This document shows, piece by piece, positions 21,947-25,953 of a stretch of DNA of 64,000 bases. Made by a program: the position numbers and the translations under genes. Position 1 is the first letter of the stretch. Each line of letters starts with the position of its first letter. The notes under the pieces were generated by a model that was given only the letters and a program-made list of their open reading frames with translations, did no database searches and was not told where the DNA came from. This stretch comes from Caldimonas thermodepolymerans (GTDB taxonomy: Bacteria > Pseudomonadota > Gammaproteobacteria > Burkholderiales > Burkholderiaceae_C): contig NZ_CP064338.1 in the NCBI RefSeq assembly GCF_015476235.1, positions 2,418,001 through 2,482,000 of the forward strand, given 5' to 3'.

Positions 21947-23371
21947 CTACGCCCCGCTCGCGCCGGGATGCACGCGGGCGCTCCCCTGCGGCACGGCGCT
22001 GCCGCGCCCCTCCTCGATCGCGGTGCGCGAGACCACGCGCAGCGTCAGGCTGAACGCGACGGACACCAGCACCAGCCCGACCACCAGGCCGATCCAGAAC
22101 CCGTAGACCTGCAGCGGCTCGCCGCCCGGCAGGCCGACGTAGCCCAGCCAGGCGCCCAGCGGGATCCCGACGCCCCAGAACGCCACCAGCATCATCAGCA
22201 TCGGCACGAAGGTGACCTTGTAGCCGCGCAGCGCGCCGATCGCGCAGACCTGGGTGGCGTCGAAGAACTGCCACAGGGCCGCGAACAGCAGCAGCGTGGC
22301 GGCCAGCTGGCGCACCGCCGTGTCGTTGCTGTACAGCTCGGTGATCAGGTGACGACCGGCGACGATGGGGCCGATCGCGGTGGCCGCGATCAGCAGGCCC
22401 AGGCCGATGCCGGTCCATGCGACGAAGCGGGCCCCGCGCGGATCGCCCGCCCCGAGCCGGTGGCCGACGCGGATCGACAGCGCCGAGGACAGCCCCATCG
22501 GCAGCATGAAGATCAGCGCCGAAAAGTTCAGCGCCACCTGGTGCGCGGCGATCTGCACCGCCCCGAACCGGCCCACCAGCACCGCGATGCCGGAGAACGC
22601 CGCCACCTCGGCGAGCCCGGCGCCGCCCATCGGCAGCCCGATGCGCAGCAGCTGCTTCTGGCCGCGCCAGGTCGGCCAGGACCAGCCGTCCCACAGGTAG
22701 TACGGCTTGTAGATGCGCCCGCGCGCGGTCCAGATCACGAGGCCGACCAGCCCCACCCACATGCTGATGCCGGTGGCCCAGCCACAGCCCGCGCCCCCCA
22801 TCGCCGGCATGCCGAGGTGGCCGTAGATCAGCACCCAGTTGAGGAAGGTGTTGACCACCAGCCCGACGAAGGCCAGCACCATCAGCGGCCGGGGGTGGTT
22901 GATGCTGGCCGAATAGAACCCGATCGCGCGGAACACCAGCGCCGCCGGCATCCCCAGCGCCACGCCCCAGAGGTACCACGCCGTCCCCGCCGCGATCGGC
23001 GGCTCGATGCCGGCCGCCAGCAGCAGCGGCTGCACCAGCGGCAGCAACGCGAACGGCAGCAGGCTGCCGAAGGCGGCCAGCCACACGCCTTCGCGCGTGT
23101 CGGCCACGATGCCGGCCCGGTCGCCCGCGCCGTAGTGATGCGCGACCACCGGGCTGACCGCCTGCACCACGCTCATCAGGCCGATGAACACCGGCATCCA
23201 CAGCGCCACGCCCAGCCCGACGATGGCCTGCTCCGCCGCGCCGGCGTGTCCCGACATGACCGTGTCGGTCAGGCCCATGAGCACGTAGGCGACCTGCGAC
23301 AGCACGATCGGGGTGGCCAGCCGCACGAGGGCGCGGCTTTCGGCCAGGAAGGCGGAGAAGGAACGGGACAT
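21947..23371 (-). CDS. MATE-family multidrug efflux transporter
   Basis: This cation-coupled exporter has 474 residues and twelve predicted membrane helices in two homologous halves. The N-terminus MSRSFSAFLAESRALVRLATP leads into the family start region LSQVAYVLMGLTDTVMSGHAG. The substrate is unknown; NorM-type members export cationic drugs and dyes. The start was placed at MSRSF because upstream sequence is repeat-rich and not family-like. It lies 53 bp upstream of pabBC on the same strand and downstream of the 23.6-24.0 kb repeat array. Confidence 0.9.
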   Translation of the reverse strand: MSRSFSAFLAESRALVRLATPIVLSQVAYVLMGLTDTVMSGHAGAAEQAIVGLGVALWMPVFIGLMSVVQAVSPVVAHHYGAGDRAGIVADTREGVWLAAFGSLLPFALLPLVQPLLLAAGIEPPIAAGTAWYLWGVALGMPAALVFRAIGFYSASINHPRPLMVLAFVGLVVNTFLNWVLIYGHLGMPAMGGAGCGWATGISMWVGLVGLVIWTARGRIYKPYYLWDGWSWPTWRGQKQLLRIGLPMGGAGLAEVAAFSGIAVLVGRFGAVQIAAHQVALNFSALIFMLPMGLSSALSIRVGHRLGAGDPRGARFVAWTGIGLGLLIAATAIGPIVAGRHLITELYSNDTAVRQLAATLLLFAALWQFFDATQVCAIGALRGYKVTFVPMLMMLVAFWGVGIPLGAWLGYVGLPGGEPLQVYGFWIGLVVGLVLVSVAFSLTLRVVSRTAIEEGRGSAVPQGSARVHPGASGA

Positions 23372-23621
23372 GGCGGGGCCGGCGGGAAAACCGGTGAGGG
23401 TACCGCGGATTGGCGGCAATGGGCGAATGGCCCCGGGATGGCGGGCGTCGTCGGGGGGCCGCGGGAGCCGCGGGCAGCGGAGGGAGGTTCGCAGGCGTCC
23501 GAACGCTCGAAATCCGGGGCGGCCTGCGCTCGAAGCGATGCGCAACGCCCCACCGCCGCCGGATGTGCCGACGGCCCTTGCGGGCCGACTGGATCAGCGG
23601 GACTGGGTGATGACGCCCCCG
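23372..23621. other. Non-coding spacer upstream of the MATE gene
   Basis: This 250-bp stretch has no credible gene: open frames in it are low-complexity. It should hold the MATE promoter on the minus strand, but no good -35/-10 pair is visible. It runs into the tandem hairpin array. Confidence 0.4.
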
Positions 23622-23970
23622 GGGCCGGGTTCTGGTGTTCGCTCACATCGCTGAAGCGACATGAGCGAACCCCGTCCCCGCGACCGGGGCCGCGCCCCGG
23701 GGCCTCGGGGGTCGCGTGGATCGGTCGGACCACGCACAGCGCTGCCCCGCGGGCCGGGTTCTGGTGTTCGCTCACATCGCTGGCGCGACGTGAGCGAACC
23801 CCGTCCCCCGCGATCGGGGCTGCGCCCCGGGGCCTCGCGGGCCGCGTGGATCGGTTGGACCAGGCACAGCGCTGCCCCGCGGGCCGGGTTCTGGTGTTCG
23901 CTCACATCGCTGGCGCGACGTGAGCGAACCCCGTCCCCCGCGATCGGGGCTGCGCCCCGGGGCCTCGCGG
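23622..23970. repeat. Tandem array of hairpin repeats, period about 130 bp
   Basis: Three copies begin at about 23622, 23751 and 23881; the third is cut at about 90 bp by the end of acs. Each holds a near-perfect 15-bp dyad, GTTCGCTCACATCGC with GCGACGTGAGCGAAC around a 4-nt loop (23637-23670, 23766-23799, 23896-23929), then a second hairpin CGGGGC-TGC-GCCCCG flanked by CCGCGA/TCGCGG. Copies 2 and 3 are almost identical; copy 1 has diverged. The array sits directly after the acs stop. It may act as an mRNA 3' structure or BIME-like element. Confidence 0.85.
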
Positions 23971-23979
23971 CTCCCTTGA

Positions 23980-25953
23980 TCAGTTGGACTGGGCCAACTG
24001 CTCGAGGATCGCGGGGTTCTCCAGCGTGGAGGTGTCCTGGGTGATCTGCTCGCCGCGGGCGATCGAGCGCAGCAGGCGACGCATGATCTTGCCCGAGCGG
24101 GTCTTGGGCAGGTTGTCGCCGAAGCGGATGTCCTTGGGCTTGGCGATCGGGCCGATCTCCTTCGCGACCCAGGCGCGCAGTTCATCGGCGATCTTCTTCG
24201 CCTCCTCGCCGGTCGGGCGCGGACGCTTGAGCACCACGAAGGCGCAGATCGCCTCGCCGGTGGTTTCGTCCGGACGGCCCACCACCGCGGCTTCGGCGAC
24301 CAGCTCGGTGCAGGACACCAGCGCGGACTCGATCTCCATCGTGCCCATGCGGTGCCCCGAGACGTTCAGCACGTCGTCGATGCGGCCGGTGATCGTGAAG
24401 TAGCCGGTGTTGGCGTCGCGCACCGCGCCGTCGCCGGCGAGGTAGTAGCGGCCCTGGAAGTCGGCCGGGTAGTAGCTCTTCTTGAAGCGCTCCGGGTCGC
24501 CCCAGATCGTGCGGATCATGCTGGGCCACGGCTTCTTGATCACCAGCACGCCACCCTGCCCGTTCGGCACGTCGGCACCGGTCTCGTCAACCACCGCGGC
24601 CATGATGCCCGGGAATGGCAGCGTGCAGGAGCCGGGCACCAGCGGGGTGGCGCCGGGCAGCGGGGTGATCATGTGCGCACCGGTCTCGGTCTGCCACCAG
24701 GTGTCCACGATCGGGCAGCGGCTGCCGCCGACGTTCCGGTAGTACCACTCCCAGGCCGCCGGGTTGATCGGCTCGCCCACCGAGCCGAGGATGCGCAGCG
24801 ACGACAGGTCGTAGTTGCGCGGATGGGTCGCCGGGTTGGCCTCGGCCGCCTTGATCAGCGAGCGGATCGCGGTCGGCGCGGTGTAGAAGATCGTGACCTT
24901 GTGCTGCTGGATCATCTTCCAGAAGCGGCCGGCATCCGGCCAGGTCGGCACGCCCTCGAAGACGATCTGCGTCGCGCCGTTGGCCAGCGGTCCGTAGGCG
25001 ATGTAGGTGTGGCCGGTGACCCAGCCGATGTCGGCCGTGCACCAGAACACATCCTCGGGCTTGAGGTCGAAGGTCCACTTGGTGCTCAGCGCCGCCTGCA
25101 GCAGGTAGCCGCCGCTGGAGTGCTGCACGCCCTTGGGCTTGCCGGTCGAGCCGGAGGTGTAGAGCAGGAACAGCGGGTGCTCGGCATCGACCCACTCGGG
25201 CTCGCAGGTGGTCGCCTGCTTGGCAAGCACCTCGTGCAGCCAGACGTCACGCGCGTTCCAGGCGATGTTGCCGCCGGTGCGGCGGTACACCAGCACGTTG
25301 CGCACGGTGTCGCAGCCGCCCATGCCCAGGGCCTCGTCAACGATGGCCTTCAGCGGCAGCTGCTTGCCGCCACGCATCTGCTCGTCGGCCGTGATGACCA
25401 GCACCGCGCCGGCGTCCTGGATGCGGTCGCGCAGCGACTGCGCCGAGAACCCGCCGAACACCACCGAGTGCGTCGCGCCGATGCGCGCGCAGGCCTGCAT
25501 CGCGACCACGCCCTCGACCGACATCGGCATGTAGATGACGACGCGGTCGCCCTTCTTGACGCCCAGCTCGCGCAGCCCGTTGGCCATGCGGCAGGTCTTC
25601 TCGAGCAGCTCGCGGTAGGTGACGCGGGTCACCTGGCCGTCGTCGCTTTCGAAGATGATCGCGACCTTGTCGCCGCGGCCCTGCTCGACGTTGCGGTCCA
25701 GGCAGTTGTACGAGACGTTGAGGAGGCCGTCCTCGAACCACTTGAAGAACGGTGCGTTGCTGTCGTTGAGGACCTTGGTGAAGGGCTGCTTCCAGGTCAC
25801 GAATTCCTTGGCCAGTCGGGCCCAGTAGCCTTCGTAATCGGCCTCGGCCTCCTCGCAGAGCTTGCGATAGGCCTCCATGCCGGATACATGAGCTGCCTTC
25901 ACCGTCGCGTCGGACGGCACGTAGAGCTGGTTTGCCTGCTCACTGGTCGACAT
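23980..25953 (-). CDS. acs: Acetyl-CoA synthetase
   Basis: This AMP-forming cytosolic enzyme makes acetyl-CoA from acetate, ATP and CoA. The 657-residue length is normal. Visible motifs are the P-loop-like [18 protein letters not shown] near residue 265, [11 protein letters not shown] near 415, [17 protein letters not shown] near 500, the hinge [18 protein letters not shown], and the acetylatable lysine in [15 protein letters not shown] near the C-terminus. The start has an ideal AAGGAGA site. Its 3' end abuts the hairpin array. It is divergent from the yqhA-like gene. Confidence 0.98.

Follow-up and report, generated by a model that had tools for sequence, protein, structure and literature searches.

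The ordinary-looking tandem array beside acs in the window (the 64,000-nucleotide stretch of Caldimonas thermodepolymerans DNA analyzed here) belongs to a family of hairpin elements that duplicate the ends of their host genes. We think it probable that the repeated unit is a small structured insertion element which either carries or copies the end of its host gene, and that it was amplified here by tandem duplication. This proposal builds on computed observations: the hairpin family and its range of host genes, the joint occurrence of element and gene-tail copy, complementarity specific to each locus, and coding-type divergence of the tails.

Tandem Repeats Finder reported one array only, at 23617-23970 (period 130, 2.7 copies, 95% matches, score 631), in agreement with the three tandem units of about 130 bp, the last partial, described by the first-pass annotation; the measured period is 129-130. 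The minus-strand gene acs ends in a stop codon at 23980-23982, which places the array on its 3' side, and the 9-bp gap between array and stop codon fits the claimed distance of less than 10 bp. Two units (23676-23805 and 23806-23935) are 95% identical, and both share 92% identity with the far copy over the 65 nt that hold its dyad, as expected from the earlier description of two near-identical units and a diverged third. The near-identity of E1 and E2 (Table 1) points to later duplication or conversion inside the array, the same direction taken by the earlier proposal of recent duplication or gene conversion. Each unit contains the two structures first noticed, a dyad (arms of 18-19 nt, 84-89% complementary) and a GC-rich hairpin, for example GGGGCTGCGCCCC. 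Allowing up to 3 mismatches, we counted three instances of the dyad pattern in the window and none in 100 window shuffles. The genome count proposed at the outset for the 34-bp perfect dyad gave three occurrences in 3,858,501 bases, all in the acs array. The predicted fold of a unit was more stable than those of 200/200 shuffles (z -5.7).

Table 1. Features of the acs 3' region, in coordinates of the window.
Feature	Position	Strand	Basis
acs, acetate--CoA ligase, host gene; stop 23980-23982	23980..25953	-	ORF; NCBIfam TIGR02188 981.8 bits, NF001208 1034 bits
T, acs tail, 13 codons + stop, duplicated in relatives; first bases (X) pair with the element's X'	23980..24021	-	
Element copy E1: left foot GGGGACGGGG, hairpin P5, right foot CACC-AGAACCC	23881..23946	-	model R1, 86.3 bits
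Element copy E2	23751..23816	-	model R1, 86.3 bits
Element copy E3, diverged	23622..23686	-	model R1, 82.0 bits
E1 dyad (hairpin P5), arms 18 nt, 89% complementary	23893..23932	.	
E2 dyad (hairpin P5)	23763..23802	.	
E3 dyad (hairpin P5), arms 19 nt, 84% complementary	23634..23673	.	
hp2, second GC-rich hairpin, acs-nearest unit	23946..23958	.	sequence + fold
hp2 counterparts in the other two units	23816-23828 and 23686-23698		
E1-E2 spacer, proposed decayed acs-tail copy (GGTCCAACCGATC vs acs AGTCCAACTGATC)	23850..23892	-	by eye; local alignment score 18, within chance
E2-E3 spacer, proposed decayed tail copy	23720..23762	-	by eye; not significant
Beyond E3, proposed last decayed tail copy (CAGTCCCGCTGATC)	23590..23633	-	by eye; not significant
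MATE efflux transporter, next gene downstream of acs + array	21947..23371	-	NCBIfam TIGR00797 276.8 bits

The refuting outcome named at first pass, a unit confined to this locus whose dyads are not conserved in relatives, did not occur: relatives have kept the hairpin, and it is present at other genes as well. A search of the same genome with one unit gave weak matches 132-133 bases apart at a second place. There, behind the gene for ornithine carbamoyltransferase, lies another array that shares the hairpin core and whose 132-base unit includes that gene's end; a third group of hairpins lies behind metK. Within the genus, the element is found downstream of acs in this genome (G000) and in G002, G005 and G008, and is absent there from the other five of the nine genomes; in G002, G005 and G008 it is followed by a copy of the species' own acs tail. 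We built a covariance model, R1, from five hairpins on the acs side, including two of the window. It matched 6 of the 9 genus genomes at E<=1 and 81 of 299 genomes from the window's bacterial family at E<=0.01 (50 of 141 genera), a threshold at which chance alone should give about 3 of the 299. A class-wide draw gave matches in 2 of 369 genomes at E<=1e-4, both from the same family and one of them the window's own genome. In these searches the hairpin family is restricted to one bacterial family. A pattern scan of named genomes returned 22 stretches, from Caldimonas, Roseateles, Rubrivivax, Aquabacterium, Paracidovorax, Alicycliphilus, Melaminivora, Inhella, Hydrogenophaga and relatives. The hairpin family was undescribed in the literature searched, which left out most subscription journals, so that this absence is weak evidence.

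Certain features recur across loci. Element spacing is 125 bases in G002, 127 in G256, 132 in G062, 135 in G066 and 132 at argF, and within an array all copies score best in one and the same orientation, as is the case for the three in the window and for the other listed arrays. The 5' foot is GGGG, within GACGGGG in the window and some relatives and within TTCGGGG, TTTGGGG or CTCGGGG in others. The most constant feature is the right junction, where ACC is joined to host A(G/C/A)AA at most of the loci read. A second hairpin class (CGGCGCAGG...GGCCGMAGCC; L219 in G130, L034, L076, L080, L084, L087, L090, L148) shows the same gene-end duplication at acs, argF, proB, metK and other genes; its model, R2, built from eight sequences including L219, was found in 5 of the 9 genus genomes. 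In the window's genome R1 gave 11 rows at four loci at E<=1 (both strands counted), and R2 gave three, all at argF, one of those four. Separately, twelve of the matches belong to a dispersed intergenic repeat that has a P5-like hairpin (GGGG-P5-ACC) and similar feet, with a gene-end copy at 0 of these 12 loci (L124, L125, L129, L135, L136, L137, L140, L141, L146, L155, L078, L083); it is present in several copies in G131 and in two in G002.

Next, we read 37 matches, and then 40 more, for their host genes, naming representatives by NCBIfam and the rest by eye from similar tails. The strongest R1 matches lie directly behind acs, and elsewhere the element follows metK, alaX (alanyl-tRNA editing protein), argF, proB and glmS. 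At three loci it adjoins tRNA-Ser, where an extra copy of the tRNA's 5' half precedes the intact gene, and at L120 and L151 it lies near the start of a biotin-carboxylase-like gene whose first codons are duplicated upstream of the intact gene. We then turned to acs loci that had not been chosen by element (150 family genomes, 143 with an acs tail; 149 matches, of which 144 were examined and 143 had enough downstream sequence). R1 matched 21 of the 143. A downstream copy of the locus's own acs tail, taken as the gene's last 42 bases at a local score of at least 30 (the maximum over all shuffles was 29), accompanied the element at 20 of these 21 and was present at 1 of the 122 loci without it (Fisher p 3e-22). 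The one R1-negative locus with a tail copy is L219, which carries the second-class hairpin, and the one R1-positive locus lacking a copy is the window's own. There the likeness between spacers and acs tail is confined to short stretches and is not significant (local score 18 against the shuffle maximum of 29). Judging from the relatives, we infer that the window's spacers are old, decayed acs-tail copies; the host-gene ends lying between the hairpins escaped the first-pass annotation, as they are by now unrecognizable in this genome. Among 35 matches at other genes or tRNAs, 25 had a repeat across the element (score at least 30; shuffle maximum 28). No significant copy was found at the remaining 10, nor at 8 of 49 element-bearing acs loci. 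The acs arrays usually terminate in a tail, not a hairpin, and there are empty acs sites in the same genus and empty sites in sister species.

Two individual loci deserve mention. At the acs 3' end of L236 (G172), the coding tail, its hairpin and the following hairpins are kept and P5 and the second tail are missing, which looks like the excision footprint of an element lost through recombination between the tails. At L147 (G180), an array with a 214-base period has a unit holding an argF-tail-like fragment.

We compared the working tail (T) with the displaced one (T') at 31 loci where T' aligned gap-free with at least 32 of 42 identical bases, a requirement that favours well-kept copies. All 31 displaced tails read 12 codons and a stop, and 21 encode the same 12 residues. 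Of 111 differences between T and T', 84 fall at third codon positions and 86 are synonymous (expected: 23% at random, 38% if only T were constrained). These alignments suggest that both tails diverged mostly as coding sequence, and hence that the element imported its tail from elsewhere or that the displaced tail is still used at times. At several loci the first 15-20 nt of T' have diverged and the remainder is identical to T, which would call for gene conversion besides insertion. The GC content of third codon positions (GC3) is lower in the tails of element-bearing acs genes than in element-free ones (0.743 vs 0.816, p 0.009), and it drops from that of the preceding codons (p 0.0015). T and T' are alike in GC3 (p 0.48) and in their likeness to element-free tails, so neither measure tells a native from a foreign tail; the idea that T' is nearer than T to element-free tails was accordingly dropped.

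The predicted fold of the acs units has an outer helix of about 10 bp between X, the first bases of the tail, and X', just left of GGGG. Inside it lie a hairpin formed by the coding tail with the post-stop sequence and two GC-rich hairpins, and P5 follows the helix. Among 19 units folded, this arrangement is clean in L094, L097, L105, L107, L109, L114, L115 and L117 and disturbed in the others. In predicted RNA folds of four units, the G's of GGGG pair with CACC, with one bulged A. Pairing between coding tail and post-stop sequence was 0.84 for working tails (n=49), 0.65 for displaced tails (n=31) and 0.49 for acs genes without an R1-type element (n=122). When 3' strands were dealt among species, in a sample that still included 5 false positives, this pairing fell from 0.80 to 0.71 (maximum of 2000 deals 0.74), and X-X' pairing fell from 7.53 of 9 to 6.51 (maximum of 500 deals 6.75). 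Each locus thus has complementarity of its own, which may be kept by selection or may have been made by copying.

Such a fold could also be a conserved RNA structure of the acs 3' UTR, acting in stability, decay or antitermination, with the tandem duplication as a side effect. The high stability of the fold, its position right after the stop codon, and the locus-specific pairing of a coding tail within it would all suit such a structure. However, only those 21 of 143 acs loci carry the element, the same hairpin occurs at metK, alaX, argF, proB, glmS, tRNA-Ser and a gene start, and an RNA acting in cis would have no need of a second gene tail. In Rfam, the window stretch gave six miRNA matches, all below threshold, and at 15 related loci only tRNA reached threshold, the element itself being unmatched. 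We consider this explanation unlikely.

Among the readings offered by the first-pass annotation were a BIME-like element and a mobile palindromic repeat. A propagating palindromic repeat is what we still favor, but membership in the REP/BIME class, with mobilization by a Y1 transposase (RAYT), now looks quite improbable. REP/BIME-RAYT systems (REPtrons) have a short palindrome with a tetranucleotide at its 5' foot, often lie just downstream of genes, and are proposed to be guided and cleaved through that tetranucleotide (PMC3733652, PMC8266576), and our element resembles them in palindrome, foot and position. A change of the REP guide from GTAG to GTGG shifted cleavage to CC (PMC8266576); the foot here is likewise G-rich, the element ends in ACC, and Y1_Tnp matches are present in 222 of 299 family genomes, mostly one per genome. 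Against this, the search for a REP-associated transposase suggested at first pass found no Y1_Tnp in the window's genome, and Y1 matches occur independently of the element across the family (62 of 81 element-bearing and 160 of 218 other genomes, p 0.66). None of 20 Y1 loci had a significant element (best 15.5 bits, E 0.16), so no RAYT flanked by the element was seen among them. GGGGTCAGA-type hairpins lie close to Y1 genes at two of these 20 loci (L169, L171), with a weaker one at L179. Moreover, the foot is GGGG and not GTAG or CGTC, there are few copies per genome where REP/BIME elements exceed 100, copies run head-to-tail where those of BIMEs alternate, and the element contains and duplicates a host gene end.

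Palindromes promote rearrangement, and the array might have arisen without any insertion, by plain slippage or unequal exchange: the hairpin would stall replication and duplicate neighboring sequence, with the tail copies as by-products. The tandem period and the near-identity of neighboring units are what this would produce. It does not account for the ACC-A(G/C/A)AA junction of most loci read, for acs arrays that usually end in a tail, for the same hairpin at unrelated loci with empty sites in sister species, or for the coding type of T' divergence, and we rate it just as improbable as mobilization by a RAYT. An intrinsic terminator was rejected (no terminator-like sites in 23300-24100 on either strand, and no T run after the hairpin), as was phage or plasmid cargo (the array had no match in either collection in a distant-mode search); we also considered and set aside group II intron domain V and integron attC.

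We therefore return to a small structured insertion element. It would measure about 125-150 nt including the gene tail, and the window array would be three tandem copies. Its right end would be fixed, consisting of P5 with the GGGG 5' foot and the ACC 3' foot joined to host A(G/C/A)AA, and its left part would be the host's last codons and stop (T), with X paired to X'. Pairing of the coding end of T with post-stop sequence, together with two further hairpins, would complete a multi-branched fold. Upon insertion, the gene would read into the element's tail copy, so that the C-terminus of the protein is kept, and the older tail would be pushed downstream. At gene starts and tRNA-Ser the 5' part would be duplicated instead, and recombination between tail copies would add or delete units with periods near 130. 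The mirrored geometry at tRNAs and gene starts speaks against this model, as one insertion scheme does not cover both; likewise, transposition was not seen and no enzyme was linked to the element. We propose that the element moves; it is probably non-autonomous.

Its possible mode of movement is suggested by known systems. At IS200/IS605 ends, a guide tetranucleotide lies 5' of the hairpin and the cleavage site is chosen by pairing (PMC8266576), a rule that GGGG 5' and CC just 3' of the hairpin would fit. Given the REP guide change that led to cleavage at CC, and the GGGG/CACC pairing predicted here, an enzyme acting on single-strand hairpins is an attractive guess: by analogy with IS200/IS605 and REP systems, P5 would be the single-strand hairpin, GGGG the guide, and cleavage would follow ACC. 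Unlike IS200/IS605, the element has no transposase gene, adds 8-10 nt of X-X' pairing, and has a coding tail in its fold. Mobile GC clusters of yeast mitochondria (PMC4478555) and double-hairpin elements are, in the descriptions compared, similarly small, GC-rich, palindromic, patchy and protein-less, but they are organellar and those descriptions contain no built-in host-gene end. MITEs differ in that their duplications are short and fixed, whereas here a gene tail of about 40 nt or more, variable in length, is duplicated and the inverted repeats X/X' are host-specific. In Allomyces atp6, a mitochondrial insert reportedly supplies a new gene 3' end and displaces the old one downstream, as we propose here; that insert is said to encode an endonuclease, and our element is too small for a protein.

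A more specialized reading, possible but doubtful in our estimation, is that of a protein-less, gene-specialized element, each lineage of which holds its target gene's end as a folded arm, lands at a defined codon, replaces the gene end and displaces the old one. If true, it would allow spread through essential genes at no cost, and the coding-type divergence of displaced tails would then point to exchange of tails between species, or to loss of the element in some cells or transcripts. Small palindromic repeats are usually regarded as intergenic debris. This family offers a near-fixed junction, a fold that recruits host coding sequence, and a displaced gene end as a record of each event. An insertion element of this kind would explain why, in this bacterial family, short tandem arrays and pieces of gene ends are seen at acs, metK, alaX and tRNA-Ser. 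With many essential-gene insertions available for comparison among strains, the spread of protein-less hairpins in bacterial chromosomes becomes testable.
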